Below are positions 29,423 through 61,797 of a stretch of 64,000 bases of DNA, one piece after another. This DNA is from Panorpa germanica. Its lineage: Eukaryota > Arthropoda > Insecta > Mecoptera > Panorpidae. The DNA lies in assembly GCA_963678705.1 (NCBI GenBank), contig OY783216.1, positions 16,322,596 to 16,386,595 of the forward strand, given 5' to 3'. The notes under the pieces are model-generated. The model was not told the DNA's origin. It made no database searches and saw only the letters and a list, made by a program, of their open reading frames with translations. Position 1 is the stretch's first letter; each line of letters begins with the position of its first letter. The position numbers and the translations under genes were made by a program.

Positions 29423-30761
29423 TATTTATATTTATTATTAATTGTGTGTGCCTTTCGGCTTTACAATCTACCGTATTCTATTTCTTAATACATTTCATTC
29501 CTATCTTAACAATTTAACCTTAAAACTAAACTTTATTAATTTTATTTAAAACTAATTATTTACTTAAAACTAAACTTTATTTATTTATTAAAACTAAAAA
29601 AAAAATTATTCTAGACTTTTAGTACTTCTAAAAAGTGCTTTCTGCTTCTTCTTCTTTTGACCCTCTCTATTATTCTCCACCAGCTTATTTATTCTCCTGT
29701 TCTTCCTTTCCTTCTTACTTTTTCCGCCATCCACCTCTTTCCTTCACTGCCTCCCTTTAGTAGCTGGCCAATATTCCTTCCGCACGCTACTTTTTCCTTA
29801 CACTCAAACTTAATGTGCTCCAGTGTTTCGTCCTCCGCTCCGCACATTCTACATTTTCTTTCCTCACTCTTTTCCCAGTATCTGTTTCCTTTTTCCTCAT
29901 TTCCCAATCTAAACCTTGCTGTTCTTCTTATGTGTTTTATGTCTTTTTCTATAAGGTACTGAGGCACATTATTTTCCCATAACCTCTTATATCTTTTATT
30001 GTAGTTACTTTTTTCTATTTTTTCCATTCTCTCCTGCTGTTGTATCTCCTTATCCCTTCTCCTTAGCTCCTCTTTCACACTTGCGCCACCTACTCTTCTC
30101 CTCTCTGCCTCCTCGATCGCCTCTTTATCTTTTTTAGACCTCCCCCCCCACATTCTTTATGCTATCCTCTTTTATTTTTTTTAAAATTTTGCTTTCCGCT
30201 CTGTTCAATTTCTCCTCGTATTTTACTGCTCTTTCCCCTGTTTTAATTCGTATCTTATCCCTTTTTAGCTCCTCCATCACCATGTATCCTGGCGTGCACC
30301 TGTCCAGCCCTAGTACCCATTTCATATCTCACCTGTATTCTTTCCAACTTTTCTTGTTCCTTCCACCCCCAAACCTCTGCTCCATACAACATCATACTGG
30401 CTATCAGTCTATCAAATATCCATATTTTTTTTGTATGTCCCCCCCAAATACCTTTTCCCCTAGTCCCTATACCCGTCGCATTGCTTGCTCTGCCTTCTTA
30501 GCTACCTCCCTTATCTGAGCCTCTTCTCCATTGTTCCTTTTAAAAGTGTAGCCCAGATATTTAAATTCTTCTACTTCCTCAATGTCCTCTGTCTTGTATT
30601 TCCACCTTTTATGTCTTCTTTTTCCACCCCCCTTTTTTAAATACCATAATTTTTGTCTTTTCCAAGTTCAACTCTAGTCCTTTCCTGTCTATATACCTCC
30701 CTAGCCGGTGTGCCATCTCCTGCAGCTCTCCTTTCCTTTTGACCAACAGGACTATATCGTC
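29423..30761 (-). mobile_element. 5'-truncated LINE, copy B
   Basis: About 1.34 kb on the minus strand, flanked by 14-bp target duplications. Same family as copies A and C: the 3' end GATTGTAAAGCCGAAAGGC is shared. The AT-rich 3' tail is TAATAATAAATATAAATATA. The 5' cut falls right at the YADD region of the RT, so only the post-catalytic part remains. Confidence 0.9.
29689..30761 (-). pseudogene. LINE copy B C-terminal coding remnant
   Basis: Open pieces at 30,134-30,325 (MKWVLGLDRCTPGYMVMEEL) and 29,689-30,153 (KEELRRRDKEIQQQERMEK, then the Cys/His motif CRMCGAEDETLEHIKFEC). They are in different frames and overlap, so at least one frameshift lies near 30,140. The part from the RT palm to GLELNVE is also present in broken form at 30,590-30,760. 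No catalytic site remains. Confidence 0.8.
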
Positions 30762-31048: not shown

Positions 31049-31052
31049 ATAG
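31049..31052 (+). repeat. Target duplication (ATAG) of the gypsy element, left
   Basis: ATAG directly before the LTR start TGTAAC; the same four bases follow the other LTR at 42,205-42,208. A 4-bp duplication is usual for Ty3/gypsy integration. Confidence 0.75.
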
Positions 31053-31961
31053 TGTAACCCTACCCCTTATATCTACTATCTATATATGGTGGTAGTTACT
31101 TATTTTATGAGGGCAATTCTATAATTCCCTCATGCGAAAGTTCGTTTATGAGGATCTGGTTCCCCTTGAGTCGGATGACCAAGCTAATGCTAATTGTGGA
31201 GGCTTCTTTATTATTCAGGACTTATTACCTCATCTAATTATATTTCATAAATATATTAGGTTTTACTTACTTTTTGTACTTTCTCTGCAGGCAGCTTCCT
31301 CTGCTTTGGACAATCACTTTATTTAACGCGACCGTTAATTCTAAGTACTTTTACAATTAAAACAAGGGATTCATTAACACTATTTTCTTTATTATTCAAA
31401 AACTTAATTAATACAAATCTTAGTAATTTTAATAATCTTTATGTCAAAGCGACTGACTAATACCCGAACCACCGACTAAGGGGCGCTACTCCCTTATTAG
31501 ACGGGGCTGATTAGACAGACCTTTCGATTGACGTCTCGACGTACTAACTGGCTGATTGATCTTGATGGACTGACCCCCTCTCCTTTCTTAAACTCGGTTT
31601 ATATAGATTCAAACTCTTTGTTTCAAAAGATGACCTCATTTAAACTTATTCCGTCATCATGGCTTTGATTTTGAGTTTGGTTTTAATATAAACATTATTT
31701 CAAAGTACACGTGCCATACACACAAAAGAAGTTAGTTAATATTTCTCTTAAAAGTTATTGTAAATACTTTGTCAGCAGTTTTGAGTATAACACTAATATA
31801 CGACATGGTCCTATCGATAAAACAATACTTAATCTAACTAATATTCCCGCCAGTTCGGCGACTTAAGCTATTAAAAATACATTGTATGTGAACCATTACA
31901 CTGGTTCCTAAATAGTTAGTTATATTATCAATAATTAATGAATCTATATGGGACTGTTACA
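31053..31961 (-). repeat. 3' LTR of the gypsy element
   Basis: 909 bp, TGTAAC to GTTACA read on the minus strand (ends TG...CA). It matches 41,296-42,204 apart from about two substitutions: T versus G at the third base of the left end, and AATTAATG versus AATTATTG near the right end. Confidence 0.95.
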
Positions 31962-31976
31962 TTGCTTCCCGTTTTT
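31962..31976 (-). other. Polypurine tract
   Basis: On the minus strand AAAACGGGAAGCAA lies directly against the 3' LTR start. It is the expected site for plus-strand DNA priming. Confidence 0.75.
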
Positions 31977-34104
31977 AAATTAAAATCTATAATCCAATGA
32001 TTATAATTTTATTAGTCTTTCCCGTATTTCTAGATTCATTCATAATTGAAACCTTAATAAAATAAATGTAATTTAAAATTTAAATCAATAAATCAATCAT
32101 ATATAATCGTTGATAATCAAAATAATTCTTCTTTATCTGCTTTATGTAGGTGATTTTGTTCTCATAATTTCATTTCAAAATGCGACAAACTTTGATAAAT
32201 AAGTGAATACTTTTCTTCGTTTCGAATACGCTCTCCCTCGGTTTGTTTTCGAATGCGGCCTTGTCCTACTGCTTTGCATCTGGCTTCATATTCCATAGGT
32301 TGCATAAACAATACTGATAGTTTTTAATGCTCCATAACATTTGTAAATTCTTGTTCTGTTTACAATACTTGTAGATCAATACACACATCATATATGTTTT
32401 CTTCTTAAGCGATTACTGCTTCACTTAGACTCTTAATTTCTTCTGGATTATTCACGTACTTCGTCATTTTCGTATTGTTTTCTTCATCTTTTTCAATTTG
32501 CATCGATTTCATCGGAATCTTCATCTCATAACGGCTTGCATTCTGGTAGTTCCTCTCGTACATTCGATCATTGACTCGTTCAAGTATTCACACTTATTAC
32601 CTTAGTCTTACGCATTATGAAAATCAACTACTAGTCTCATCCTTCAGTTCCTCGTTGTTGTAAATGCTGCAATTTATACTCTTACGTAATTATCTTAATT
32701 ATAAATTCATTTTCTGTCTTCTTTTTCTATAATTTCTTACATTTGACATAACAAATTTGGCTCTTATATAGCTCTTTTACTTATACTTTGATTAACTTTA
32801 CTTAGAAGTTATAGTCATTACAAAATATGAATTTATTTCATAACATATCTTAATTTCTAGTTATTTTAATTATATTTTAAACATAACATGTAAATATCTT
32901 ACGGCATGTGTTTCTTTTTTTAAATATCATCAATATCTTTTGAATTTCCTCTTATTACTTTTTTTTTCTTTGATTGTTATATATATGTTTTTCAACTTTG
33001 CAATATTTATGCCATAAATTATTTTCACATCTTTTACAAACTACTTGTTAATTCTACACAATAATAAAATTTAATGTAAACATATTTTTTTCTTTAATTA
33101 AAATACAAATTTAACTTTTCTCTTAAATTTAGAATCAATATTCCATACTTTAGTTTATACTTTTATTAACGAATATTTTAATGAACTTATTCTCATTTAC
33201 TGTATTTTTTCCATTTAACAAATTTATTATGTTTATTTCTTTCAAATCAAAACATTATTCTAAACATGGTTATATCAAACATTATTTTTAAATCTATTTA
33301 TTATTTTTTTTAAACAACAAAATCTTAATTTTATAGATACTTTACTCAAATATAGTCAAGGTAAACATAATTATTAAACTTCAACACTTGTTACTTGAAT
33401 TTAAAACAACTTTTTATATTCGCATGTAGTTTTACATGTGCTTCACAAAATAAAATTTCTTTTTCTCTATATTATATTATATCTCAATGCAATTTTAACA
33501 ATACAAGTGTTTAAATTTTCAATGAATACCTCTTATCAATTTTAAAATCTTCTTCTTTCTCCAAAATAATCTGTGAACAGAAAAACATGTTAATTTATTC
33601 AAAATTTGTGATATAAAATCTTCAATTAAGTCATCTCATCCTATTTGCTGCATTCATTATGTATCTTGTCCATCTGAAATTATATAGCATTAGTATATTT
33701 CGATAAAAACATAAAAATTATTATTCTTTAAACGTTATTGTTACTCATGTTTCGTACATCTGTAATTTCTGGTCTAGCTTGTTTATTATTGTACCCTTAT
33801 CTAATTTATGTTCTCCAACCCCCTGTTAGAAATCTTATTTATGTTCACTTATATTCTCAAGTGTTAATTTCTTCTATGACCTTTCTGACTCGAATTTCAA
33901 TACATCTGTTACAAATAACTTTAGTCTCTAATTATATGTTTATTTTCTTAACTCATGACCTTTCTGTTTTTATGTTTCTTTTACTCGTAAAATATTAAAG
34001 TACCATATTAGTCTCATTTAACTATTTTAACGACAAAATAATCCCTTTTTCAAATTGACCTTAACTAATTTATATCCCATTGAAACTCCGATAGTTATAA
34101 TTAG
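31977..34104 (-). other. 3' noncoding region of the gypsy element
   Basis: About 2.1 kb of AT-rich DNA between the pol stop and the polypurine tract, in the place where envelope genes sit in env-bearing relatives. No frame longer than about 90 codons and no envelope signature was found. The only coding-like part is a broken ORF at 32,162-32,586. Confidence 0.6.
32162..32586 (-). pseudogene. Broken third ORF of the gypsy element
   Basis: One minus-strand frame of about 140 codons stays coding-like from EYLNERVNDRMYERNYQNAS through IPMKSMQIEKDEENNTK to YEARCKAVGQGRIRKQTEGE and a final HFEMKL stop, interrupted only by three TAA codons (one at 32,324-32,326). It is Lys/Glu/Asn-rich with no membrane segment, so it does not look like an envelope protein. 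No family recognised. It may be a captured or accessory gene that decayed before this young copy inserted. Confidence 0.4.
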
Positions 34105-37100
34105 TTATATTCTACTATTCGATATCCACGGTTGTTTTGGTGCAACGCATCGGCTGCGCAAAGAGTAACTATGCCCAATTTTATCTTCAACTGGATTTTC
34201 TATCTCTATATCAATATTCTCTATATTGTCATTATTATCAATATTCGTGTCTATCTCGATTATTTCTTCTATCTCATCTGATATATCATTATTCGTATCA
34301 CTAGTATAACCCAAATTCAATAAATTACCGAAACCTGTATTTAGATTCGTACCATTTTCTTCATCTTCAGATTCACTTTCTGAATGAACTTCATTATTTC
34401 CTGAAAATACCTCAGCTGTATTACCTTTAAATTTCTTGAGGCGATTAACATGCACTCGTTCTTCCCGTTTTCCATAAATTTCCTTTATTAAAAAGTTTAC
34501 TTCGCTGGTTCTATCAATAATTCTATAAGGACCTCGCCATACTTTTCCAAGTTTTCTACTTAATCCCGGTGTGTGCGTCATATGTTTCAATAGCACATGA
34601 TCACCTATTTTAAATTTGACCGGTTCCGACTTTTTATTATATTGTTTAGCTTGTCTATCTTTTGCTGTTTCTAACCTTTCTGTACATAACTTAAAAGCGT
34701 TCTTTAATCTTAAAATTAATTCGGCGGCATAATTATCATCGAGGTCGTATCTAACTCTTTCAGGTTTTAATACCTCTCCATATGGTAATACCATATCACG
34801 ACCATGCATTAGAAAAAATGGTGTTTCTTGTGTCGAACTATGTATAGCTGCATTGTATGCCATGACAGCGTAGTTTAAACAGGAATCCCAATTCCTTTGA
34901 TCAGAATCCACGAAATGTGACAAATAGTCTTTTAATATACGATGACAACGCTCTAAACTTCCGTTTGTCGAAGGAGAATACGCTGATGTTGAAAGTTGCG
35001 TAATGTCTAGTCTCTTACAAACGTTTCTAAATAATTCGGACAAAAAGTTAGTACCTCTATCTGTCAATAAAGCTTTAGGAGTACCATAACGTGCTATAAC
35101 TTGTTCACAAAATACCTTTGCTACCGTTTCTGCAGACTGATCAGGTATTGCAAACGCTTGCAAGTATTTTGAGAATGCACATTGAACTGTTAAAATGTAC
35201 TTCATCCCTGAATTACTGAGTACTAATGGTCCTACAATATCTAGTGAAATTCTTTCAAATGGATAAGTAAGCGGTTTAAATTTCTGTAACGGTGCTCGTT
35301 TTAAATGAGGTGAAGTTTTTCTCATTTGACAGCTTAAACATTCTTCACAATATCTTTTTATGTCTTGTCTCATTGCTGGCCATACAAAATGTTTCTTTAT
35401 TATCTGTAGTGTCCCTTCAAATGCCCTATGCCCTGCTGAAGGCGTATTGTGAAACAAATACAATATATTCGGTACCATTCGTGTTGGTGCTACTACACAG
35501 TCATTTCTATCTGTTTTTTCATTACTTTTCTTATACAGTATACCCCTATCATCTAAATAATAATCATTTTTCTCCCCATACTTAGTTTGTGTTATTAATT
35601 GTTTAATATGGGAATCACTAGCTTGTTCATTTTTAATTTGACACCAATCCCAATATGGAACTTCTTCAGCTGCTACGGCTGCAATACTTTCTGTTTCTAT
35701 TCTACTTAATGCATCGACATTACCGTGTTTTACCCCTGGCCTATAAATAATTTCAAAATCGTAATCTGCTAAAGTTAAAGCCCACCTTGCTAATCTACTT
35801 TTCATTGGATCTTTCATAGTCATTAACCAACGTAATGATCTGTGATCTGTTTGAATCTTAAATTTCTTACCATATAAATACGTACGAAAATGGGATAAAC
35901 TCCATAAAATCGCTAAACATTCCCTTTCTGTGGTTGAGTAATTTTTCTCACATTTATTTAATTTACGAGAAGCGTATGCTACAGGACGTTCTACTCCATC
36001 CTGAACTTGGCTTAGGATTGCACCTAATGCGATTCCTGATGCATCTGTACCTAATATAAAATCTTGACTAAAATCTGGGTAAGCTAAGACTGGCTCAGAA
36101 CATAACGCGTTTTTTAATGCTTCAAAACTTTTCTCTTGTTCAGGTCCCCAAGTAAATGACTCATTTTTGCAAGTTAGTTTTGTTAGGCTTGATGATAATT
36201 CTGAAAAATTCTTTATAAATCGTCTATAAAATGAAGCTAACCCTATAAAAGATCGGATTTGTTTAACTGTTTTCGGACGCGGATAGTTTCTAATTACTTC
36301 CGTTTTTTCTGGATCTGCCTTTACACCATCACTAGAAATAATATGACCAAGATATTGCGTTTCTTTATTCATAAATTCACATTTACTAGGCTTCAATGTC
36401 AAACTTGCTTCTCTCAAGCGATCGAAAACCTCTTTAATTCTCTGGATATGTGAATCTACATCATCGTTACTAAATATTATAATATCATCTAGGTAAACTA
36501 AACAATGTACTCCGGTTAAACCCGCTAACACTGCATACATAAGTCTCTGAAATGTAGCAGGAGCTGATACTAACCCAAACGGCATAACATTAAATTGAAG
36601 GTGTAAATCAGGTGTTGAAAATGCTGTTAATTCTTTAGATTTTTCGTCCATTTCAATTTGCCAAAATCCCGATGCTAAATCTAATTTGGTAAATAAACTT
36701 GCTTTGCCTAATTTATCAAGAGTGTCTACTAAGTGTGGTAATGGAAAGTAATCTCTTTTTGTTATTGCGTTAAGACCCCTGTAATCTATGCAAACTCTAA
36801 CCTTGTTTTCCCCATTTGCTGCTTTCTTATTTACAAGAACAACATTACTGGACCACGGTGACATTGATGGTTCTACTATGCCATCTTCAAGCATTTGATC
36901 TATCTGTTCTCTCAGTACCTGTAACTGTGCATGCGGAACTCTATATGGTTGTTTAGTTATAGGAGGAACATCTTGAATTATTATCTTATGTTTAACTATC
37001 GAGGTAGTTTTCAATTCTTGACCCTCTGTTAAGAATATGTCGCGATATTCGTAAATTAAATTTTCCATTTTACTTTGGTCTCTAGCACTTAAATGATTTA

Positions 37101-39018
37101 ACTTTATTTTACTAAAAAGTTCCGTTATTCTCTGTGTTTTATTTATATCATCATTCTTATGACTTCTTTGCTTCCACTGATTGGTAACTTCATGTATAAT
37201 TTTATCTTCTTTAGCTGTTAAATTATTATAACCTATTTCATCAAATAATTGTATATTTTCAAACCCTGTGTTTGTTTCTGCTGATCGTACAGCACCAATT
37301 AAAATATTTTTATTTCTTTGTCGGACATGTTCTCTTAATAATTCAACTGTTTCAGTATATTCGTCATCATATGGCTCTATTATACCTATCTTAGTATTTA
37401 TTGGTATATTTATATTCTTTTGCGTAACATTGGTTATTCTACATATTAACCTACCCTTACATATTGAATTTACACTTCTTGCTACTAATACTCCATCTAT
37501 GCTCAATTCTGGGTTAAAAATCCCATGACCTTCCTTAATGTCTTTTTGAAATGCATGAACATTTATTGTACATCGGGGCGGTAACGTTTCTTGACCTAGT
37601 AACCTAACACTACACCGATTACTACTACACGTGTGTGCGTCTGTTCGCTTTCGAGTGGTTTCAGATTTCTCATTCATATTTTTGTTTATTTTTTCAACTC
37701 GGTCAGCTGTGTTTATTCTTTTTAACCACTTTGTTTGTAACTTCTTCCATTTCTTTACCTGTTCTTCGGCTTTAACATTCTTTCCGTCAATGTTACTTTT
37801 TAAATCTTTATCATTTTCATTTATTATACAGCTCATATACCTTTTTCCATCTTTTTCCGATTCGCCATCATAGAATGCTATCTTTATTTTACTTTCAGAA
37901 AATATATATTCAATCATTTTACTCACTATTGTAAAATCTAATTTATCTAGCCCACATGCTATGTATGGTAATGCAATAAATTTCACTTTATTTTCTAACA
38001 TATGATCCCGTAATTTAATTATTGACGAATATAAATCTGCGTAGAGAGGTTTCTCGTTACTCCTCTTCTTTGTTACTAAATAATATATAAAACGATTTTC
38101 ATCTTTTAATATAGCTAATCCACCCTTTTTCTGTTTCTGTTTCAAAAGCTGCTCAACTCTACCAAATCTTTCTTTAAATTCAACTGCTATTCCTTGTGAC
38201 ATACGTAAATCTGAGGCTACACAATGACCCAATGCATACTTGCTAGATGCATTAAACAAATCTCCCTTATTAAAATTTATACTGCACAACGTCTCTATCG
38301 TTGGAAATCTACTATTTTTCCATTTTAGAAAATCATCAAAACTATTATAATCGTGCCCTATCTTATCAATTCGCTGATTATTTACTTCTCTTTTTACGTC
38401 AATATTTTCTGTTTCAGTACAACCTATATTTCTACCTTTTCTATTCTTTTCTACGATTTTCCCTGACTTTGATATAATACGCTTTTGCTTTCTAATGATA
38501 CCATTTACATTTTCTCTAATCATATTATTTATATTTAAATTATCTTTCTGAAAATCATGTACAGTATTACGATTAATGTCGTAAATAACGTTTCTGTATA
38601 TTAAGATACCCTTTCCAAAATCTACAATTATCCCAAATTTACGAAGAAAGTCTAACCCAATTATACCTGTCCAATTTTCCATATTTTCTACAATTTCAAA
38701 ATCAAAAGTCACATTATCCCCAAATAAATCTAACTTTAATCTGCTTTTACCAAGTGTATGTATTTTATTATTTTGTGCATCTCGCAAGATATTTTGCGAT
38801 TCTGTAATTTTTTCTGTTTTTAAACATTCTCTAGTTAGTAGGCTGGCGCCTGCACCACTATCTATAAGAACATTGCAATTTTGACCATTAATTACTAAAT
38901 TAAGAAACCATTGATTATCATGAAATGCCGGTACATACAACTCTGTAAGACTACCCTTTTTACTTATTGAATGGCTTCTACGTCTCGGGTAGTGAGTGAA
39001 GCCATCAATCCGTTTAAA
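34105..39018 (-). CDS. pol: Gag-Pol (Pol part) polyprotein with TARG1-like macro domain
   Basis: Pol frame, open from the frameshift site (39,018) to the stop; residues are counted from the codon at 38,940. Domains in order: retropepsin-like protease (DSGA, D27) with GLDFL near 95; macro domain about 219-360; basic linker; RT about 660-860 with the catalytic YLDD at 816-819; RNase H (D966, E1006, D1032); integrase with the HHCC zinc site (H1164, H1171, C1201, C1204) and the DD35E triad D1234, D1294, E1330; GPY/F module (WRGPY, about 1468); then an acidic tail about 1513-1590. All catalytic residues are present and there are no stops, so it looks functional. It would cleave the polyprotein, copy the RNA and integrate the DNA. 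The protease-RT gap (~600 residues) is far longer than usual because of the macro domain and linkers. The frame is -1 to gag and no good ATG starts it, so translation by frameshifting is expected. Confidence 0.95.
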   Translation of the reverse strand, partial: FKRIDGFTHYPRRRSHSISKKGSLTELYVPAFHDNQWFLNLVINGQNCNVLIDSGAGASLLTRECLKTEKITESQNILRDAQNNKIHTLGKSRLKLDLFGDNVTFDFEIVENMENWTGIIGLDFLRKFGIIVDFGKGILIYRNVIYDINRNTVHDFQKDNLNINNMIRENVNGIIRKQKRIISKSGKIVEKNRKGRNIGCTETENIDVKREVNNQRIDKIGHDYNSFDDFLKWKNSRFPTIETLCSINFNKGDLFNASSKYALGHCVASDLRMSQGIAVEFKERFGRVEQLLKQKQKKGGLAILKDENRFIYYLVTKKRSNEKPLYADLYSSIIKLRDHMLENKVKFIALPYIACGLDKLDFTIVSKMIEYIFSESKIKIAFYDGESEKDGKRYMSCIINENDKDLKSNIDGKNVKAEEQVKKWKKLQTKWLKRINTADRVEKINKNMNEKSETTRKRTDAHTCSSNRCSVRLLGQETLPPRCTINVHAFQKDIKEGHGIFNPELSIDGVLVARSVNSICKGRLICRITNVTQKNINIPINTKIGIIEPYDDEYTETVELLREHVRQRNKNILIGAVRSAETNTGFENIQLFDEIGYNNLTAKEDKIIHEVTNQWKQRSHKNDDINKTQRITELFSKIKLNHLSARDQSKMENLIYEYRDIFLTEGQELKTTSIVKHKIIIQDVPPITKQPYRVPHAQLQVLREQIDQMLEDGIVEPSMSPWSSNVVLVNKKAANGENKVRVCIDYRGLNAITKRDYFPLPHLVDTLDKLGKASLFTKLDLASGFWQIEMDEKSKELTAFSTPDLHLQFNVMPFGLVSAPATFQRLMYAVLAGLTGVHCLVYLDDIIIFSNDDVDSHIQRIKEVFDRLREASLTLKPSKCEFMNKETQYLGHIISSDGVKADPEKTEVIRNYPRPKTVKQIRSFIGLASFYRRFIKNFSELSSSLTKLTCKNESFTWGPEQEKSFEALKNALCSEPVLAYPDFSQDFILGTDASGIALGAILSQVQDGVERPVAYASRKLNKCEKNYSTTERECLAILWSLSHFRTYLYGKKFKIQTDHRSLRWLMTMKDPMKSRLARWALTLADYDFEIIYRPGVKHGNVDALSRIETESIAAVAAEEVPYWDWCQIKNEQASDSHIKQLITQTKYGEKNDYYLDDRGILYKKSNEKTDRNDCVVAPTRMVPNILYLFHNTPSAGHRAFEGTLQIIKKHFVWPAMRQDIKRYCEECLSCQMRKTSPHLKRAPLQKFKPLTYPFERISLDIVGPLVLSNSGMKYILTVQCAFSKYLQAFAIPDQSAETVAKVFCEQVIARYGTPKALLTDRGTNFLSELFRNVCKRLDITQLSTSAYSPSTNGSLERCHRILKDYLSHFVDSDQRNWDSCLNYAVMAYNAAIHSSTQETPFFLMHGRDMVLPYGEVLKPERVRYDLDDNYAAELILRLKNAFKLCTERLETAKDRQAKQYNKKSEPVKFKIGDHVLLKHMTHTPGLSRKLGKVWRGPYRIIDRTSEVNFLIKEIYGKREERVHVNRLKKFKGNTAEVFSGNNEVHSESESEDEENGTNLNTGFGNLLNLGYTSDTNNDISDEIEEIIEIDTNIDNNDNIENIDIEIENPVEDKIGHSYSLRSRCVAPKQPWISNSRI
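37861..38286 (-). other. Macro domain (TARG1/OARD1-like) encoded within pol
   Basis: Residues about 219-360 of Pol. The stretch holds KGDLF (225-229), a HC..SDLRMSQGIAVEFKERFG block (239-260), IYYLVTKKRSNEKPLY (285-300), LPYIACGLDKL (324-334) and a final KIKIAFYD. This is the order and spacing of TARG1/OARD1, the vertebrate and insect macro-domain enzyme that removes ADP-ribose from acidic residues. The two TARG1 catalytic residues, K84 and D125, correspond to K291 and D332 here, both kept. Activity and substrate are inference. The domain lies in one uninterrupted frame with protease and RT, so it is part of the polyprotein and not a nested insertion. Confidence 0.85.
38950..39018 (-). promoter_or_regulatory. 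-1 ribosomal frameshift site with pseudoknot
   Basis: On the minus strand gag codons AAT TTA AAC contain the slippery heptamer U_UUA_AAC (39,012-39,018). After a 6-nt spacer comes AUGGCUUC (38,998-39,005), perfectly complementary to GAAGCCAU (38,971-38,978). The loop holds ACUACCC (38,987-38,993), perfectly complementary to downstream GGGUAGU (38,950-38,956), giving an H-type pseudoknot (loops of about 4, 8 and 14 nt). The gag UAA (38,964-38,966) lies in the last loop. The pol frame has a stop directly before the heptamer, so pol is reachable only at or after this point. Confidence 0.9.
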
Positions 39019-40085
39019 TTATCCTCATAATTATTGGACGCTCGTAAATTTCTTTCTTCAACTTCGCTTGGCTTATTTTCGATGCTGCGAATATTTCTGT
39101 TACTTTGGAAAGTCACTTGTCTCTGATTTCTCGCAGGACTACGGCTATCATTATATTCTTGGAGGACTCTAACACTCCCTAATCGGTCATTACTTTGACT
39201 ACGGTTTCCATACCTATTTGACCTGCGATTTCTTTGAAATCGATCTCTTACGTCCCTTATCTCCCGTTGAGGACGACTACGACAATCTCTCTGAAAATGT
39301 CCTACTCTGTTACAATTATAACACCTTGCACCATCTCTTTGCCTATTATTAAACCTACGGCCTTGTGAACCGCTACGCGAGTTGCTAGGTCGCATAGACG
39401 ATTGATTATTTTGAGATGTGCGATTTACATAATAGTGGTCGGTTCTGTTTATTCGGTTTGTACCCCCTGTAGCAATCTCTGCTACGTAGCCTTGCTTCGA
39501 TGAGACTAAATCATCGGTTTCTACTCTTTCCGCAATTTCAACGGCACTATTAAAACTCTTGGGATCCGCGGCCCAAATAAACTTAGAATATCTCGGCGAT
39601 ATCCCTTCTTTAAATCTTTTTAAAACGGCTACTTGCAACTCAACTGTGAGCTTCTTTTCTTGCTCTTTATCAATTGCTTCTGGTACACATTTTGACCCTA
39701 ATGCCCATAACCTTTGTGAAAATTCATAAACAGTCTCGCCATGTCTTTGTTTACAACCCCCGAACTCAATTTCCGCTTGTCTCAGAGCAGATGGCCCTTT
39801 TCTGCTATATCTAGACAATAATGCATTACGAATACTCATATAACTACGGTTCTCACTTTGAACCTCCGAATTAGACAAAAGATATTCAGCTACATCAGGC
39901 GACACTTTCGCAAATACGGTAACTGATTGCACCTTATCGGTCCAATCCAACAATTCTGCCATTTGATCCACCGCATTTAAAAATGTTGCTATGCTACCTG
40001 TACCGTCAAAGAATGGTATATAATTCAATCCTTTCAATTTAGGAATTTCTGGGGCAATAACTGCGTTTGTTTCATTAGTTGCCAT
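38964..40085 (-). CDS. gag: Gag polyprotein
   Basis: 373 codons from an ATG at 40,085. Residues about 50-190 form the helical retrotransposon-Gag region (LRQAEIEFGGCKQRHGETVY, then EFSQRLWALG is the family's hallmark block). A Ser/Asn/Arg-rich linker follows, then one CCHC zinc knuckle, CYNCNRVGHFQRDC (255-268), for RNA binding, and a basic tail. It would assemble the virus-like particle and package element RNA in the cytoplasm. The slippery site lies at codons 356-358, near the C-terminus, so Gag-Pol keeps nearly all of Gag. Intact; the leader of about 1.2 kb separates it from the 5' LTR. Confidence 0.93.
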   Translation of the reverse strand: MATNETNAVIAPEIPKLKGLNYIPFFDGTGSIATFLNAVDQMAELLDWTDKVQSVTVFAKVSPDVAEYLLSNSEVQSENRSYMSIRNALLSRYSRKGPSALRQAEIEFGGCKQRHGETVYEFSQRLWALGSKCVPEAIDKEQEKKLTVELQVAVLKRFKEGISPRYSKFIWAADPKSFNSAVEIAERVETDDLVSSKQGYVAEIATGGTNRINRTDHYYVNRTSQNNQSSMRPSNSRSGSQGRRFNNRQRDGARCYNCNRVGHFQRDCRSRPQREIRDVRDRFQRNRRSNRYGNRSQSNDRLGSVRVLQEYNDSRSPARNQRQVTFQSNRNIRSIENKPSEVEERNLRASNNYEDNLNGLMASLTTRDVEAIQ

Positions 40086-41275
40086 TTTAACTATTTGGAA
40101 TAAACTTTAAATCAAATAAAAACCTTTAGTAAGCTTCAATAAACTACTACAAATATTTTAAAATCTATTTTTTTTTTAAAAGTAAACAATATCTTACACG
40201 GCCTTAGTTATTTTAACAAAACTGTACTCTTGTGATTTACTTTTTGAAACGAAATGGAACGTCTAGTTGTTTATATATACATAAAAATAAACAAACAAAT
40301 TATTTTTAAGTAGGTCAAACAAAATGCTAGTATATTTAATATAGACTGTTTTTAGAACAATAAAAACCCAAATAAAAATTATGACAAACAATATTTATGA
40401 CAAAAGTATATTAACGAATTGTAAATTGATAAAATTATTTTTAATTATTAGTTAAATAAAATCAAACAAACTATTTTATGTAATACTCAATATTTTCTCA
40501 TATAATCTAAAAATAAATTCAAAATAATTTCAAATAAGTTGTGTTACAAATTTTTTAATCGTTCCAATCACTTAATAAAATTACGACAAAACAAAAACTA
40601 CTTATTTTTTCAATTCCTGTTACAATGACTCTAAACTTTATACTTTATAAAAACGTGCCACTTTACTTGTGAATTACAAAAACTATTTTAAAAATATCCC
40701 TTATTTAGTTACGGTTAAAACAAAATATTCAACTTTAACAAGTTATGGTTTAGAAAAATTATCTACTGTTTAGTTCCTTAAATTTATTCCCTTTTACAAA
40801 ACTTAAAATACCCCACTCTTTGATTATTTAAATATTCCCTTTTCTTGAATTATGCTGATATCTTTTCTTTTTCTAATTATTAATCTGCAGTTGCTAGTTG
40901 CAATTAATAAACTATATTCCTTTTTTCCAATTAATCCTTTTTATCCGTTTTTCCCAGTTATTACAATTTATTCCTTTTTTCACAATTAATAAAACTTATT
41001 TTTATTTCTTTTTTTCAGTTACTAAGATTATCCCTTTATTTTCTCAAATTAAATTTTCCACTTAATGCCTTTTTTCCCAATTACTCAAATTTCTGCCTTT
41101 TTTAACATCCCACAATTTTAATACCTTTTTTAACGTATCTCTCTTTTAAAATACCTTACAATTTCTATACCCTTTTTCTTTTAAATGTGACCCCACAATT
41201 TCAATACCTCTCTTTTAACATATTTCTCTTTTAATACACCTCTTTTCAATACACCTTTCTTTTTCTTTTAATTGA
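40086..41275 (-). other. 5' leader of the gypsy element
   Basis: About 1.2 kb between primer site and gag ATG. On the plus strand it is T-rich with many imperfect repeats of the style CCTTTTTTCCCAATTA (40,860-41,280), so the RNA leader is A/G-rich and probably poorly structured. No ORF. The packaging signal presumably lies here (inference). Confidence 0.6.
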
Positions 41276-41292
41276 CCCCACACCTGACACCA
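41276..41292 (-). other. Primer-binding site, tRNA-Leu-like
   Basis: On the minus strand TGGTGTCAGGTGTGGGG starts 3 nt after the 5' LTR. TGGTGTCAG is complementary to the 3' end of animal tRNA-Leu (...CTGACACCA); the rest fits less well. Confidence 0.6.
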
Positions 41293-41295
41293 AAA

Positions 41296-42204
41296 TGGAA
41301 CCCTACCCCTTATATCTACTATCTATATATGGTGGTAGTTACTTATTTTATGAGGGCAATTCTATAATTCCCTCATGCGAAAGTTCGTTTATGAGGATCT
41401 GGTTCCCCTTGAGTCGGATGACCAAGCTAATGCTAATTGTGGAGGCTTCTTTATTATTCAGGACTTATTACCTCATCTAATTATATTTCATAAATATATT
41501 AGGTTTTACTTACTTTTTGTACTTTCTCTGCAGGCAGCTTCCTCTGCTTTGGACAATCACTTTATTTAACGCGACCGTTAATTCTAAGTACTTTTACAAT
41601 TAAAACAAGGGATTCATTAACACTATTTTCTTTATTATTCAAAAACTTAATTAATACAAATCTTAGTAATTTTAATAATCTTTATGTCAAAGCGACTGAC
41701 TAATACCCGAACCACCGACTAAGGGGCGCTACTCCCTTATTAGACGGGGCTGATTAGACAGACCTTTCGATTGACGTCTCGACGTACTAACTGGCTGATT
41801 GATCTTGATGGACTGACCCCCTCTCCTTTCTTAAACTCGGTTTATATAGATTCAAACTCTTTGTTTCAAAAGATGACCTCATTTAAACTTATTCCGTCAT
41901 CATGGCTTTGATTTTGAGTTTGGTTTTAATATAAACATTATTTCAAAGTACACGTGCCATACACACAAAAGAAGTTAGTTAATATTTCTCTTAAAAGTTA
42001 TTGTAAATACTTTGTCAGCAGTTTTGAGTATAACACTAATATACGACATGGTCCTATCGATAAAACAATACTTAATCTAACTAATATTCCCGCCAGTTCG
42101 GCGACTTAAGCTATTAAAAATACATTGTATGTGAACCATTACACTGGTTCCTAAATAGTTAGTTATATTATCAATAATTATTGAATCTATATGGGACTGT
42201 TACA
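41296..42204 (-). repeat. 5' LTR of the gypsy element
   Basis: 909 bp, nearly identical to 31,053-31,961. Followed on the right by the ATAG target duplication (42,205-42,208). Confidence 0.95.
41811..41848 (-). promoter_or_regulatory. Predicted core promoter in the 5' LTR
   Basis: On the minus strand TATATAAA (41,841-41,848) is followed about 30 bases later by TCAGTC (41,811-41,816), an exact insect initiator. Transcription would start near 41,814, making 41,815-42,204 U3. The same pair exists in the 3' LTR at 31,568-31,605. Confidence 0.55.
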
Positions 42205-42208
42205 ATAG

Positions 42209-45273: not shown

Positions 45274-47201
45274 CAGTGTACGCAGGTAATACAGTCGGAC
45301 TAAAAGCCGGTCGGTGCTGTGGAAAAAGACACTCGAGAATTGATAGCGATGGCGTGAGATATAGTACGGGTAGTACGGGTGATATTTATAAGAATTAATA
45401 AATAATTAATAGAAATAGTTTTAAAGTGATTCTAAAGGTAGGGAGTAACGAGTTTGTAAAATAAATTATTATCAATTAGATTTGTTGTTTGTGTTTCTCC
45501 TTGAATGTTCACTATATGTATGCAGAACACGGAATAAAAAAAATTGAATCATTTACTATTTTTGAGTAATACGCGAAAAATGCTTTTTTTGAAGTGGTTT
45601 TCTAACTTTTTCTACAATATCACTTGAGGTTTTATAACACCAATTAGAATTTTTTTTAAATCAGGCAATCCATTTCAGGCATTCTTTTAATGGCGTAAAA
45701 GATAGACTTACGTGCTAGTTGCAAAAGGAAACACAAATATTTTTGTTATAACCCCGTGAATGAACTATAACACAACTGTACGTTTAAATAAATATATGTA
45801 TTAAAAATATTCTTGGCCGTGTTACTAAATTCGCCAAAACTTTAAATCAGATTAAAAAATGTTACATAAAAAAAATAAGACAAAAATAATTAAAATATAA
45901 AAATAAATAAATAAAACACCACATCTTGGATTATCGGATTGTCATCTATAGATTTAACTAAATAAAGTTTAAAGTTATATTTCAGAAATGACTAAAAGAA
46001 ATATCATTATATTTATTCATAAATCAGGAAGAACAGCAAAATAGTATTAAAATGTATATAGGGGAACTAAAATAAACTACGGGACAAAATAGTTTGGGCT
46101 TATATAATTAAACCAAAGGTTATGAAACTCTAGTTAGGCCAAATCAACTGCACTATTACCTCATAATTAAATGTTATCAAGAAAGTCTACAAGATATTAC
46201 ATATTGCAAGCAACATTTTAATTATTACCGTCTTACTAATTTTAATAGAAATAAATAAAACATATCTCAAAGAAAAAATGGCTGTTTTCTAACTACGTTT
46301 AAAAAAAAAAAAAATTAAAAAATTGCTTTGCAAATATTAATCATTTTTTAATTTTTAGAATATTACAACTAAGCTGTTGCAAATCTGGAAATTTACACTT
46401 CGTTATAGATAATTTTATGCAATTTCAATACACTGACTAGTCTGTAAAAAATAGTAAACACTTGATTCTCTTGTGGTATGGTATCAGGATCACAGGCATA
46501 CGTCTTGCGGCTTGGACCTCTTTAATCTGCTATTGACTATCTGCAGAATTCCTTGATTCTGGTGAATCTGTAGGCCTAAATGATGATTACTAGCACTTCT
46601 CATTACTTCAGCGTATATCGTGTGTTTAATTTATATTATAATGTACAAAGGCACATAATCATTTAAGTGTATTAACTTTTAACAGTTAAAACCACTTAAG
46701 GAGGTACAGGACATACCGTCAATGCAGAAAGTTTATCTCTCGATAAAACGAAATACAAAATATATAATTAAAATGACTTTTTCATTTCACAATAAAATAG
46801 ATTTTCGCCTGTTTAAATGATTTTCTTATGCATATAATAACTTAATAATTAAAGAATTACTTTGTCAAGTTTATATGAATTTAATTAAAATTATAAAAAA
46901 ACTTAATAAAATATTATATTTTAAAAAAGTAATGGTAAACTTAACAACGCTGCCGGAAGAAATGTATGAAGGTATAAAACTTAGGCCGCTCGCACACGGG
47001 TGGGTAAGTATCGATATGTGTGCAATATGTCAATCGGTTAATGCTCAATACATTTTGCATCAAGTTTGAATACGGATCGGTGCAATCGTTGCCGTCTCAT
47101 AGTCCAAATTTTCTGTTTTTTACTGCTTTTATTTAATTATTTCTGGAAACAGGTACTCTTTTGATAACTTCATTTTTGCAATGGTTTAAAAAACATTTTT
47201 T
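45274..47201. other. AT-rich intergenic DNA
   Basis: No gene supported. About 45,300-45,480 is less AT-rich (AAGCCGGTCGGTGCTGTGG, repeated TAGTACGGG) without a call. The 64-aa plus frame at 46,875-47,069 is unrecognised. Confidence 0.4.
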
Positions 47202-47215
47202 ATATACACGAGGTT
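47202..47215 (+). repeat. Target-site duplication of LINE copy C, left
   Basis: ATATACACGAGGTT recurs exactly at 49,118-49,131. Confidence 0.85.
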
Positions 47216-49117
47216 ACCTGCCAGACAGCTGGAGAGAAGGGGTAATAACGCCGATATATAAAAAGGGAAATAGACATGAAGCCAAAAATTACAGGGGTAT
47301 CACACTACTGAACACAGGGTACAGGATTTATGCAGGGATTGTGAGAGAAAGACTGGAAGAAGAGGTAAAAGTAAAAGAAATACTTCCCGAGACACAAGCA
47401 GGCTTTAGAAAGGGACGAGGGACTTTAGACAATATATACGCACTGAACCATTTAGTTGAAAAAGAGCTTAGTGAAAAAGGAGGACAGATATATGCAATGT
47501 TCATCGACCTTAAAGCGGCGTTTGACATGGTCGACAGACAGAAATTGTGGAAGTACATAAGAAAGAAAAAAATAGATGAGGACATAATGGAATGTATTGA
47601 AGAAATTTACGAAGAAACAAGAATGAGAATAAGAGTTGGGGGTAAAGAATCAGAAGAATTCTGGATAGACAAGGGGTTGAGGCAAGGTTGTCCTCTGAGC
47701 CCCATTTTATTTGCGATATATACAGCAGACTTGGAGGGGGTAATGGAAAGAGGACAAGATGGGGGGGTGCTAATAGGAAGGCACTACAAGATATGGACTT
47801 TAGCATACGCTGACGATATAGTCCTGTTGGCAAAAAGGGAAGGAGAGCTGCAGGAGATGGCACACCGGCTAGGGAGGTATATAGACAGAAAAGGACTAGA
47901 GTTAAACGTGGAAAAGACAAAAATTATGGTATTTAAAAAAGGGGGTGGAAAAAGGAGACATAAAAGGTGGAAATACAAGACAGAGGACATTGAGGAAGTT
48001 GAAGAATTTTAATATCTGGGCTACACTTTTAAAAAGAATAATGGAGAAGAGGCGCATATAAGGGAGGTGGCAAAGAAGGCAGAGCAAGCAATGCGACGGG
48101 TATGGGGACTAGGGGAAAAAGTATTTGAGGGGGACATACAAAAGAGAATATGGATATATGAGAGACTGATAGCCAGTATGATGTCGTATGGAGCAGAGGT
48201 TTGGGGGTGGAATGAACAAGAAAAGTTGGAAAGAATACAGGTGAGATACATGAAATGGGTACTAGTGCTGGACAGGTGCACGCCAGGATACATGGTGATG
48301 GAGGAGCTAAAAAGGGATAAGATACGAATTAAAACAGGGGAAAGAGCGGTAAAATACGAGGAGAAATTGAACAGAGCGGAAAGCAAAATCTTAAAGAAAA
48401 TAAGAGAGGATTACATAAAGAATGGGGGGGGAGGAGGTCCAAAAAAGAGAAAAGAATACTTTGTAAGGAATGGAATGGCGATCGAGGAGGCAGAGAGGAG
48501 AAGAGAAGGTGGCGCAAGTGTGGCAGAGGAGCTAAGGAGAAGGGATAAGGAGACACAGCAGCAGGAGAGAATGGGAAAAATAGAAAAAAGTAACTACAAT
48601 AAAAGATATAAGAGGTTATGGGAAAATAATGTGCCTCAGTACCTTATAGAAAAAGACATAAAACACATAAGAAGAACAGCAAGGTTTAGATTGGGAAATG
48701 AGGAAAAAGGAAACAGATACTGGGAAAAAAGTGAGGAAAGAAAGTGTAGAATGTGTGGAGCGGAGGACGAAACACTGGAGCACATTAAGTTTGAGTGTAA
48801 GGAAAAAGTAGCAAGCGAAAAGAATATTGGCCAGCTATTAAAGGGAGGCAGTGAAGGAAAGAGGTGGATAGGGAAATAGTAAGAAGGAAAGGAAAAACAG
48901 GAGAATAAACTGGTGGTAATAAGCTGGTGGAGAATAATAGAGAGGGTCAAAAGAAGAAGAAGCAGAAAGCACTTTTGGAAGTAGTAAAAGTCGAGAAGAT
49001 TTTAAGTTTATTTTAAGTTTAGTTTTAAGTTTGGAATGTATATAGGAATGAAATGTATTAGAAATATAATACTGTAGATTGTAAAGCCGAAAGGCATACA
49101 CAATTAATATATAAATA
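47216..49117 (+). mobile_element. 5'-truncated LINE, copy C
   Basis: About 1.9 kb on the plus strand, flanked by 14-bp target duplications; the longest and best preserved copy of the family of A and B. The 5' cut is just upstream of the RT, at LPDSWREGV. The 3' part has GATTGTAAAGCCGAAAGGC and an AATTAATATATAAATA tail. The coding sequence needs only one nonsense change to explain its two open frames. Confidence 0.9.
47217..48879 (+). pseudogene. LINE reverse transcriptase with one in-frame stop
   Basis: Both open pieces (to 48,012 and 48,067-48,879) lie in the same frame, separated only by a TAA at 48,010-48,012 in the context EEF-stop-YLGYTF. RT blocks in order: VITPIYKKG, NYRGITLLN, GFRKGRGTLDNIYALN, FIDLKAAFDMV, GLRQGCPLSPILF, the catalytic AYADDIVLLA and LELNVEKTK. 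After the RT come SYGAEVWGW, LDRCTPGYMVMEEL and the zinc-type motif CRMCGAEDETLEHIKFEC near the end. The upstream codons from 47,161 belong to flanking DNA. The last residues differ from copy B (GKRWIGK stop versus a longer end), pointing to a small frameshift at the C-terminus. Confidence 0.88.
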
Positions 49118-49816: not shown

Positions 49817-51122
49817 CTCTGTCTGTTCAAAAAATAAGGTGAATTTTCATTTTTCTCAAAAAATATTTATTTATTCATCAATTTCTATTTTGTCCCGTTC
49901 AAAGTAGTCCCCCTCAGATATAATACACTTGTGCTAGCGTTTTTACAATCCTCAAAGCAGTTTTGATATGCACTTTTTGGTATGCTCTTGAGCTCTCTCA
50001 GCGCTTCGGTTTGTATCTCCTTAATCGTCTCAAAATGCCGTCCTTTCATGGGTCTCTTCAATCTTGGGAACAGGAAAAAGTTGCAGGGGGGCAAATCTGG
50101 TGAATACGGTAACTGAGGCATGATTACGGTGTTGTTTTTGGCCAAAAAATTACGAAGAAGCAATGACGAGTGAGCAGGTGCATTATCGTGATGCAAAAGC
50201 CATGACTTGTTTTTCCACAACTCCGGACGTTTTCTTCGTATTGCTTCTTGCAAGCGGCGCATGACTTCAAGATAATACTCCTTATTGACCGTACGACGAT
50301 GTGGTAAGAACTACTGATGCACTACGCCACAGTAATCGAAAAAAACAGTCAGCAAAACTTTCACATTTGATTGAACTTGGCGTGCTTTTTTTGGACTTGG
50401 CTCTCCTGGGCTCCTTCATTGGGACGATTGGACTTTTGTTTTGATGTCATAACCATATACTCATGATTCGTCACCAGTTATGACCTTTTTAAGCAAATCT
50501 GGATCGCCGATGACGTCATTCAACAATTCCTGAACGATGCTCATGCGACGATTTTTTTGGTCTAAATTGTTGCCACACGCTTCATCCCAAAAATTTCCGA
50601 AAAAATTGCATGGCATGAGCCAACCAATATGCTGACATCCTCAGCAACTTCTCTAATAGTAATTCGACGATTCTCCATAACAATTTTCTTCACTTCCTCA
50701 ACATTTTCATCGGTTGTTGATGTGCTGGGGCTTCCAGGGCGAGCGTCGACATTCACATCTTCTCGACCTTTTGTAAAAAGCTTGTACCGCTTGTAAACAT
50801 TTTTTTGGCTTAAAGTAGACTCATTGTATGCAACATTCAACATTTATCAACATTTTAAGTGTTTTGGAGCTTGATTCCATTTTTCACACAAAATTTAATT
50901 CAAACCCTTTGATCTATGTTTTTCGACAGCAGCAAATCGCCGAACACGCAAAACACTTGTAACTTTTATGTCTCTCACAAACAAACTAAATGTGCTATAT
51001 AGCTAAAACTGTGAACATATGTTCGAGACGAGTGTAGCAACATAACAAAATAAAAAAATCGATAATCGAATGTACGTAGCCCGCGAAATTTTTGCCTCAC
51101 CTTATTTTTTAAACAGACCTCG
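49817..51122 (-). mobile_element. mariner transposon (defective, ~1.3 kb)
   Basis: Terminal inverted repeats: CTCTGTCTGTTCAAAAAATA at the left end and CGAGGTCTGTTTAAAAAATA at the right end (reverse complement), both continuing AAGGTGA. A TA dinucleotide flanks each end (49,815-49,816 and 51,123-51,124), the mariner target duplication. Length 1,306 bp is normal for the family. The only gene, on the minus strand, is broken. Confidence 0.93.
49885..50843 (-). pseudogene. mariner transposase, inactivated
   Basis: The N-terminal part (50,562-50,843) is the helix-turn-helix region (YKRYKLFTKGREDV, RPGSPSTSTTDENVEEVKK, ITIREVAEDV). The middle holds the first catalytic Asp in TGDES, followed by TGA where the family has Trp (50,461-50,463). 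The C-terminal part (49,885-50,262) has HHDNAPAH with the second Asp. YSPDLPPCNFFLF carries Asn in place of the third Asp, giving DD34N instead of DD34D. Frame changes lie between the pieces. Total span (about 320 codons) fits a full-length ~345-aa transposase. It could still be mobilised in trans through its ends. Confidence 0.9.
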
Positions 51123-60302: not shown

Positions 60303-61797
60303 TTATATATTCGAGAATGTATTTGATATTTGAGTAAGGTTTGAGTTGTTGCTGTTTACTCTAATTGGGTTTATCCGATCATAGACTGCTTTGTTGAGGT
60401 CACCAGGTTGTTCGTAATATTTGTAATATTCGGCAGGTATTTTCTCAATTTTTCTTAATGTCACACCGGATTGTTTGTGATGCTGATAAAAACATTCTTG
60501 TCGATATTTAGTATTTTGCATTCGAGTTTGTTGTTTGTATGGAATGTAAGTATACTTATTTTTAAAACATATTTTATTTCTGGCTGTTGTTCTATGTGTT
60601 TATAATATTCTTCTAGTTCTTTTGCATTGTCAACTTCTGGTTCTTGTTGAAAATATTTACAATGCTCGTCAGCTGCATTTTCGATTTCAATTTCTGGTTC
60701 TATTTCAGAATATTCATAATGTTCTTCAGATGTATTTTCGATTTCAGTTTCTGGTTCTATTTCAAAATATTTATAATGATCTTCAGGTGTATTTTCATTT
60801 TCAATATATGGTTTTTGTATTTGTTGTTTCAGGTAATTCGTACGTATCATTTCTGAAGTCTCCATAGACTCAAAGTTTTGGGTATTTTGTTGAATAGGTT
60901 GATATTGTGGTTTTGGAATAGGTAAATTAGGTTTTGGAATAAATTGTGATGGAATAGGTAAATATGATTGCGTGCATGGCGTTAATGATGGTTTTGGTTG
61001 GAAATTGTTTTGATAAGGTATAAATGAATGTTTCGGTTGATTGTTTTTTTGATAAGGTATAAATGATTGTTTTGGTGGGAAGGGTTTATTTTGCGGTTTC
61101 TGGTGAGGTGATTTAAAACTTTGTGTTGGTCTATCTGGTGAATAAGATGAGTAGTATTTGCACTGCATGCGTTGTATATTTTCCTCTTCTAACACATACG
61201 ATTATGCCTCTCCACAGAGCTTGGCATTCTTGCTTTTATACATTCTCTTAGTTTTCCTCTCAAACCTCTGGTAAAAGATTTTAGTATTACCTTTGTATAT
61301 AGGTTTAATTTTTCCTTGAAAAGAAGATTACAATTATATTGATTATTATAGGCCAATAGAGCTGACAGATGGTCAGAGCATCTATTAAAAAATTCTGTCG
61401 TACTTTCATGTGATTCCTGTATCAGTTCACTAACTGCTAAGATAAGGGTACCTTCATCTCTTTGGTCTGAGAAGTTAGTGATTAGTACTTTTTTCAGGTC
61501 CTCCCATGTGTTAAGCGTCACCCTTTTAGCGGAATCCTCCAACTTTGATAAAACTACTAGAACTATCCACGTTTTGGTTTCATTAACTGCATTTCTGAAC
61601 ATGTAAACTATATTGTCTACCCGTCTTATAAAAGTACTTAACTTTACGGGTTCTCCGTAAAATGTTTTAACAGTATCAAAATAACAATCGCTATAAATTA
61701 TATTGTTGTGCCGTAGTTCTGCGAGTTGTCTTTTTAGTTCTTGTAGTTGTAACAATACATTTTCCATTTTTAAATTTTTGTTTATATTCAACTTCAT
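60303..61797 (-). pseudogene. Errantivirus-type gag, broken
   Basis: Minus strand. The first part (61,189-61,797, 202 codons from an ATG context) has the features of errantivirus Gag: an N-terminal coiled-coil-like stretch (LLQLQELKRQLAEL), FYGEPVKLSTFIRRVDNI, NTWEDLKKVLITNFSDQRDE and the ESTTEFFNRCSDHL block. A frameshift near 61,200-61,230 and an in-frame TAA separate it from the second part (60,461-61,195), which begins LEEENIQRMQCKYYS. That part holds a Pro/Gln/Lys-rich region with SFIPYQ repeats, then three or four imperfect repeats of an acidic unit around YKYFEIEPE. A last frame at 60,303-60,521 follows. No zinc knuckle is visible, as usual in this group. Gag would form the particle; this copy cannot make the whole protein. 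Confidence 0.75.
60640..60830 (-). repeat. Imperfect acidic repeats in the errantivirus-like gag
   Basis: The coding sequence repeats a ~63-base unit (DNA phrases TCTGGTTCTATTTCA, ATGATCTTCAG and ATGTTCTTCAG recur), giving copies of an E-HYKYFEIEPE-type motif. Repeat number probably varies between copies. Confidence 0.6.

Follow-up and report, generated by a model that had tools for sequence, protein, structure and literature searches.

A TARG1-class macrodomain fused in frame within the Pol protein of a Ty3/gypsy retrotransposon of Panorpa germanica

The window analysed here is a 64,000-nucleotide stretch of the genome of Panorpa germanica (assembly GCA_963678705.1, contig OY783216.1, positions 16,322,596 to 16,386,595 of the forward strand). 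It contains on its minus strand a Ty3/gypsy long terminal repeat (LTR) retrotransposon of 11,152 nt (31053-42204) with intact LTRs and a target-site duplication, whose Pol protein includes a macrodomain of the TARG1/OARD1 class (Table 1). The LTRs, the target-site duplication, a primer-binding site and the domain order protease (PR), reverse transcriptase (RT), RNase H (RH) and integrase (IN) all agree with Ty3/gypsy, and the Pol C-terminus, after the integrase core, is of the p58 type. An env gene of the errantivirus kind was not found between pol and the 3′ LTR, where the longest open reading frame (ORF; ATG, GTG or TTG start) lying wholly within 31962-34104 had 86 aa and stood on the opposite strand. 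The sequence-only reading of this DNA had described a very young element with the macrodomain in frame between PR and RT; the two LTRs differ at 2 sites over 909 nt and the Pol frame is single and uninterrupted, in accordance with both descriptions. The protease models scored slightly below their cut-offs (PF13975, 25.4 bits against 28.2; PF00077, 20.5 against 20.7). The heptamer T TTA AAC in the gag/pol overlap (39018-39012) is presumably a -1 slippery sequence; an unusual fold was sought downstream of it and none was seen (z -0.31). The primer-binding site is taken by us to be tRNA-Leu-like.

Table 1. Features of the macrodomain-bearing LTR retrotransposon (window coordinates; residues are those of Pol).
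Feature	Coordinates	Strand	Evidence or remark
Target-site duplication ATAG, left	31049..31052		flank comparison
3′ LTR, 909 nt, TGT...ACA	31053..31961	-	LTR comparison; 2 differences from 5′ LTR
Pol open frame, 1611 aa from first listed start	34105..38940	-	frame open back to 39018; -1 frame relative to gag
Integrase core PF00665, residues 1227-1323	34972..35262	-	E 8e-12
Integrase zinc-binding H2C2 PF17921, residues 1152-1210	35311..35487	-	E 1.2e-17
RNase H region PF17917/PF17919, residues 931-1060	35761..36150	-	Pfam
Reverse transcriptase PF00078, residues 705-868	36337..36828	-	E 1.5e-37
TARG1/OARD1-type macrodomain, residues 219-360, catalytic K291 and D332	37861..38286	-	homology, alignment, selection
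Aspartic protease, RVP-like, residues 10-103	38632..38913	-	PF13975, E 2.3e-5
Gag ORF of 373 aa with a single CCHC zinc knuckle	38964..40085	-	ORF list and Pfam; overlaps pol
Heptamer T TTA AAC, gag frame, gag/pol overlap	39012..39018	-	sequence reading; probable -1 frameshift site
Probable primer-binding site TGGTGTCAGGTGTGGGGTC	41274..41292	-	3 nt from 5′ LTR
5′ LTR, 909 nt	41296..42204	-	LTR comparison
Target-site duplication ATAG, right	42205..42208		flank comparison

The domain in the window Pol belongs to the TARG1 class of macrodomains and is continuous with the Pol frame. It was aligned with TARG1 by phmmer over 137 residues (E about 7e-38), that is, over the whole domain, the TARG1 fold was found, and in the alignment the catalytic Lys84 and Asp125 of TARG1 correspond to K291 and D332 of the window Pol, so that both the TARG1 identity and the intact catalytic pair proposed from the sequence alone were borne out. 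Profile comparison of residues 219-360 gave a divided result, in that TARG1 itself was matched but the Pfam Macro model (PF01661) reached 18.7 bits with the domain alone and 14.9 bits in the whole Pol, below its gathering cut-off of 22 bits. The class assignment is therefore based on homology to TARG1 and not on PF01661. The same model fell below its cut-off in five of five Pol proteins scanned whole, and so overlooks this accessory domain. The DarG antitoxin model NF048014 scored 40.7 bits, far under its equivalog cut-off of 250 bits. The G+C content at third codon positions was equal in the macrodomain (0.225) and in Pol (0.223). ADP-ribosylhydrolase activity of the Pol macrodomain is a prediction, and the role suggested from the sequence alone, erasure of PARP-type marks in the course of replication or of the host response, is plausible. 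An N-terminal helix that seemed by eye to be common to the lineages, ahead of the macrodomain, was rejected by a shuffle test: with ten comparisons, 86 of 2000 shuffles did as well as the best pair between lineages. The best match in BFVD was a predicted TARG1-type domain in VP8 of Kadipiro virus, an arthropod reovirus (A0A8E0KJF2; 47% identical to the window macrodomain, TM score 0.94).

Copies of the domain were searched for in the same genome (464 Mb, 249 contigs; 150 of 591 candidates were scored, giving 151 matches with E no higher than 1e-3), and the counts obtained are lower bounds. The family of the window element (family A) comprised at least 53 rows at 90-100% identity, with the window row counted and two split fragments not counted; near-identical copies were spread over different contigs, and open frames of at least 1,571 aa were present in 9 of the first 30 rows. 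Lack of further copies had been named beforehand as the sign of a private accident; such an accident is ruled out by these rows together with six other Pol families of this genome that carry TARG1 domains.

Selection was estimated as the ratio of nonsynonymous to synonymous proportions (pN/pS) by the Nei-Gojobori method with pairs pooled, loci with a stop or out of register being dropped. For the family-A macrodomain pN/pS was 0.32 (copy bootstrap 0.27-0.38; 28 of 30 loci), the sample being the best 30 macro matches of 151, which biases this value downward. The linker directly after the macrodomain (residues 361-445) gave 0.99 (25 loci), i.e. neutral, and the linker before it 0.46 (23 loci); the other values were 0.16 for PR (15 loci), 0.33 for residues 446-560 (15 loci), 0.07 for residues 561-690 (12 loci) and 0.10 for RT (12 loci). 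K291 and H239 were conserved in 30/30 family-A copies and D332 in 29/30. In family B, described below, the macrodomain gave 0.35 in nine copies with an open macrodomain (four short ones dropped), the comparison values being RT 0.10 (8 copies), RNase H 0.14 (7), IN 0.34 (6) and a linker 0.49 (5), and the active-site Lys and Asp were present in 9/9 copies, one of which had an altered motif around the Lys. From these values the macrodomain seems to be maintained by selection acting on active elements, under a weaker constraint than RT.

The further families were delimited by mapping domains on uninterrupted frames in 20 genomic stretches; the seven families (A to F, with E1 and E2) were separated by divergence of macrodomain and RT, and the grouping is our own. 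The TARG1 domain is under purifying selection in the sampled copies and recurs in other Pol families at three positions of Pol. The architecture PR-macro-RT-RH-IN of family A was shared by E2 (L058, L059). RT-RH-macro-IN was found in families B (L050, L051, L053; interrupted in L052, L060, L064, L066, L067 and others), C (L054, L055), E1 (L057) and F (L055:71-2107), and family D (L056) showed RT-RH-macro in a single frame. The position between protease and RT, for which a check in other Pol proteins had been suggested, thus occurs in E2 also, the other five families having the domain on the RNase H-IN side. In the block of family B (about 41-50% identity), at least 29 rows had an open frame of 1,296 aa or more. 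TARG1 was the best solved relative of the macrodomain in all seven families (E to TARG1: B, 9.4e-43; D, 1.5e-23; E1, 4.4e-21; C, 2.5e-17; E2, 3.4e-15; F, 3.9e-14), and equivalents of both K84 and D125 were retained in the alignment in five of the seven (A, B, C, D and E1), with N in place of D20 in E1. Three family-B matches on contig C5 (16555239-16568374) lay on the same strand at a spacing of exactly 6361 nt, as would be expected of LTR elements arranged in tandem.

When about 5.8 billion proteins were searched with the window domain as the scored region, 5 matches were obtained among 165 candidates, four of them Pol proteins (P0001-P0004) and the fifth a helicase-like protein (P0005). The macrodomain was located C-terminally, after the integrase, in 4/4 of these Pol proteins, and the catalytic Lys and Asp were present in all four and unchanged across an alignment of eight sequences; the equivalent of Asp20 was present in P0001. 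The RT of P0002 was 26-30% identical to those of the other Pol proteins, and its macrodomain 51% identical to that of the window; between P0003 and P0004, RT, RNase H and integrase were 76-79% identical and the macrodomains 55%. With the P0004 macrodomain as query the sole match among 209 candidates was P0004 itself, although P0001-P0003 were in the set, and the homologue search accordingly cannot detect relatives that share no words. Free-standing TARG1-like proteins numbered 4 from 16 candidates. In IMG/VR no retroelement relatives were found by RT, by the window macrodomain alone or by P0006; 13 loci there encode macro domains, and at L001, the viral locus whose surroundings were read, no retroelement ORF was seen by eye.

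Behind its macrodomain, P0002 (a Pol of 1651 aa) carries at residues 1353-1513 a domain of the KptA/Tpt1-type RNA 2′-phosphotransferases (PF01885, 27.8 bits, narrowly above the cut-off of 26), so that in this element the putative eraser is fused to a KptA/TRPT1-like domain, of an RNA ADP-ribosyltransferase class. Solved relatives of the latter were matched at E 0.2 only, and their first Arg-His is Arg-Glu in P0002. The Arg-His pair of KptA-type domains is presumably catalytic. The KptA-like domain of P0002 may be inactive, and a pair of writer and eraser is put forward as a lead only. P0005 (1522 aa, on a 17.5 kb contig) has an N-terminal TARG1-like macrodomain together with PF08719, which we take to be NADAR, both being ADP-ribose related.

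The host TARG1 gene was located on contig C19, near 723.4-724.1 kb, in three separated pieces, the very start of the gene not being found; the stretches between the pieces are taken for putative introns, one of them with in-frame stops. Farther downstream (L062, 4921-5190, plus strand) there is another TARG1-like stretch, a diverged one, which is perhaps a tandem paralogue like Drosophila Targ1-3. The retroelement macrodomains are uninterrupted whereas the host gene is split, which fits the capture of an mRNA. The window domain was 47.2% identical to host TARG1 and 46.7% to human TARG1. In a 20-row tree, from which four diverged rows (P0005, L006, L010 and P0009) were left out, five retroelement domains, human TARG1, two free proteins and one viral-contig protein were split from phage and bacterial homologues with support 100/98. 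Phage homologues were 33-38% identical (12 records), and a bacterial or phage origin of the domain is not favoured given this split. Close derivation from the present host TARG1 is a possibility: in a tree with host TARG1 and the further families (three of six bacterial loci, no viral ones), no row had a shorter path to the host protein than the window domain, which was itself nearer to human TARG1, and no supported fork joined host and window. A single clade of retroelement domains was not rejected in that tree (p-AU, from the approximately unbiased test, 0.269), in the 20-row tree (0.242) or in another macro tree without the three long rows P0005, L006 and L010 (0.356), and many forks were open. 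Eight of 13 viral loci were taken into one of the trees, and the P0001 domain was used without its first residues in several trees and alignments, including the 20-row tree.

In an RT-RNase H tree of 11 macro-bearing elements, built without named reference RTs and rooted on P0002, the groups A with E2 (96/96), B with P0001, P0003 and P0004 (97/96) and C with D (90/98) were recovered, and the RNase H-IN position of the macrodomain occurred in two separate parts. Together with the three positions in Pol, this tree indicates that the domain was placed into Pol at no fewer than three sites, whether it was captured anew or was moved or exchanged between elements, two courses that would leave the same picture.

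On this evidence it appears moderately probable that the domain is a eukaryotic TARG1 which was captured through RNA and is now a constituent Pol enzyme of a young Ty3/gypsy element, clearing ADP-ribose from the nucleic acids of the element and possibly from proteins. Pol would be made by -1 frameshifting and, as is established for Pol of LTR elements, packaged together with the element RNA, and the macrodomain would act either fused or after release by the protease. It would then hydrolyse ADP-ribose on the element's own nucleic acids, namely on uracil in RNA and on thymine or phosphate ends in cDNA, and possibly remove it from nearby proteins, perhaps Gag/Pol. A block of reverse transcription, translation or integration by host ADP-ribosylation would thereby be undone; in families with an altered active site the domain might be a binder of ADP-ribose or nucleic acid, or might be decaying. 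Such activities are described for TARG1, which reverses thymine-ADP-ribose and is dead as K84A (PMC8501950), reverses uracil-ADP-ribose in RNA, two of three fly homologues being active on the uracil probe (PMC13036486), and, like other hydrolases and viral macrodomains, removes phosphate-linked ADP-ribose from RNA ends (PMC6582358).

Several points weigh against this interpretation. MACROD2 and ARH3 are also active on the uracil-ADP-ribose probe, which is thus not specific to TARG1 (PMC13036486), and ADP-ribosylation of insect retroelement RNA or cDNA was not found in the literature examined. Besides the bias of the family-A sample, the macrodomain is less constrained than RT and than residues 561-690, and, given the low value of the latter, inter-domain stretches are not all as neutral as linker 361-445. 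Family E2 has K84 replaced by R and D125 by C and is without H32, family F retains the Lys but has D125 replaced by T and H32 by D, with other residues lost as well, and family C retains Lys and Asp and has G121 changed to E and G123 to D in the active-site loop; erasing activity therefore cannot be the full explanation in every family. Finally, sequence does not distinguish a nucleic-acid substrate from a protein one.

The principal rival, which we regard as unlikely, is that the domain is directed at proteins and undoes marks that host PARPs or sirtuins have placed on Gag/Pol or on proteins involved in silencing or antiviral defence, as viral macrodomains do. TARG1 also takes ADP-ribose off Glu and Asp of proteins (PMC8501950), SIRT6 mono-ADP-ribosylates KAP1 and so silences L1 in mammals (review, PMC4695847), and viral macrodomains counter host ADP-ribosylation (PMC7232374); a narrow literature query yielded no publication on silencing of retroelements by an insect PARP. 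Less probable still is a module for binding and targeting, which would read ADP-ribose at DNA breaks or chromatin and steer the pre-integration complex in the manner of Ty3/gypsy chromodomains. Families C, E2 and F keep the domain in frame despite their changed residues, and the domain adjoins integrase (between RNase H and IN or after IN) in five of seven genome families and in the four other Pol proteins, but in family A it adjoins the protease, and the catalytic Lys and Asp, superfluous in a module that only reads ADP-ribose, are retained in A, B, C, D, E1 and P0001-P0004 and in nearly all A and B copies examined. That the captured host sequence is a passenger tolerated in a linker without function is very improbable: the linker 361-445 does tolerate change, and in two families the catalytic pair is incomplete or missing and in a third the loop is altered, but purifying selection acts on the domain in A and B, both catalytic residues are present in five of seven families and in P0001-P0004, and the domain recurs at three Pol positions. 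An artefact of assembly or annotation, with a host exon set beside an RT gene, has nothing beyond general possibility in its favour and is negligible in view of the one uninterrupted frame within intact LTRs and a target-site duplication, the many near-identical copies on different contigs, the macro-Pol fusions in other source collections, and a host TARG1 gene that lies elsewhere and is split.

Among known systems, human TARG1/OARD1/C6orf130 and Drosophila Targ1-3 are free-standing cellular enzymes, the gene being split in this host, whereas the window domain is an uninterrupted part of a polyprotein. The macrodomains of RNA viruses (alphaviruses, rubella virus) are likewise ADP-ribose-processing domains inside a replicative polyprotein. 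DarG is a bacterial antitoxin, partner of DarT, and isolated macrodomain structures of it are 22-23% identical. Extra domains have likewise been added to Pol in the form of the chromodomain and the DnaQ-like exonuclease of retroelement polyproteins, and the dUTPase of some lentiviruses sits between RNase H and IN. The accessory domains named in PMC6338049 and in the plant screen of PMC9289625 include no ADP-ribose enzyme. Most similar in kind is the AlkB m6A RNA demethylase of orchid Ty3/gypsy elements, in which an LTR retrotransposon has also captured an eraser of RNA modification (PMC9289625); it differs in chemistry and kingdom, is encoded in an additional ORF instead of inside Pol, and is active in vitro. 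In a survey of NAD and ADP-ribose systems in 21,191 viral proteomes, retro- words were used only for retroviruses with 2H domains, and no retroelement is listed in its Macro section (PMC9503650). No report of a macro domain or TARG1 fused in a retrotransposon was found in the full-text literature among the matches listed (subscription papers and Repbase entries lie outside that coverage), in line with the earlier remark that no case in a Ty3/gypsy polyprotein was known.

The biological purpose of RNA and DNA ADP-ribosylation in animals is described as an open question (PMC13036486). That a selfish element repeatedly fixes an enzyme class removing these marks suggests, independently and on evolutionary grounds, that they may matter to the element, and the macro-bearing elements offer a concrete system in which ADP-ribose marks on RNA and DNA can be sought. 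More tentatively, and with rather less than even confidence, TARG1-type hydrolases are proposed as a recurrent anti-restriction module of LTR retrotransposons, installed at three Pol positions; animals would then defend themselves by ADP-ribosylating nucleic acids or Gag/Pol. If true, this would be a hitherto unrecognised ADP-ribosylation defence against retroelements, with elements escalating by means of their own eraser.

Other elements were also observed in the window. The ORF at 49885-50262 (minus strand) gave no Pfam match at E 0.01 and reads by eye like the end of what we take to be a mariner-type transposase. A second gag-like ORF at 61189-61797 (minus strand; PF03732, E 9.8e-5, 22.9 bits against 24.1) probably belongs to another LTR element; the ORF beside it (60461-61195, minus strand) had no Pfam match. 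Reverse transcriptase matches at 14308-14802 (minus strand) and 47161-48012 (plus strand) and a weak zinc-binding match at 48067-48879 (plus strand) apparently represent pieces of broken non-LTR retrotransposons, and a further such piece was recognised, by eye only, at 29689-30153 (minus strand).

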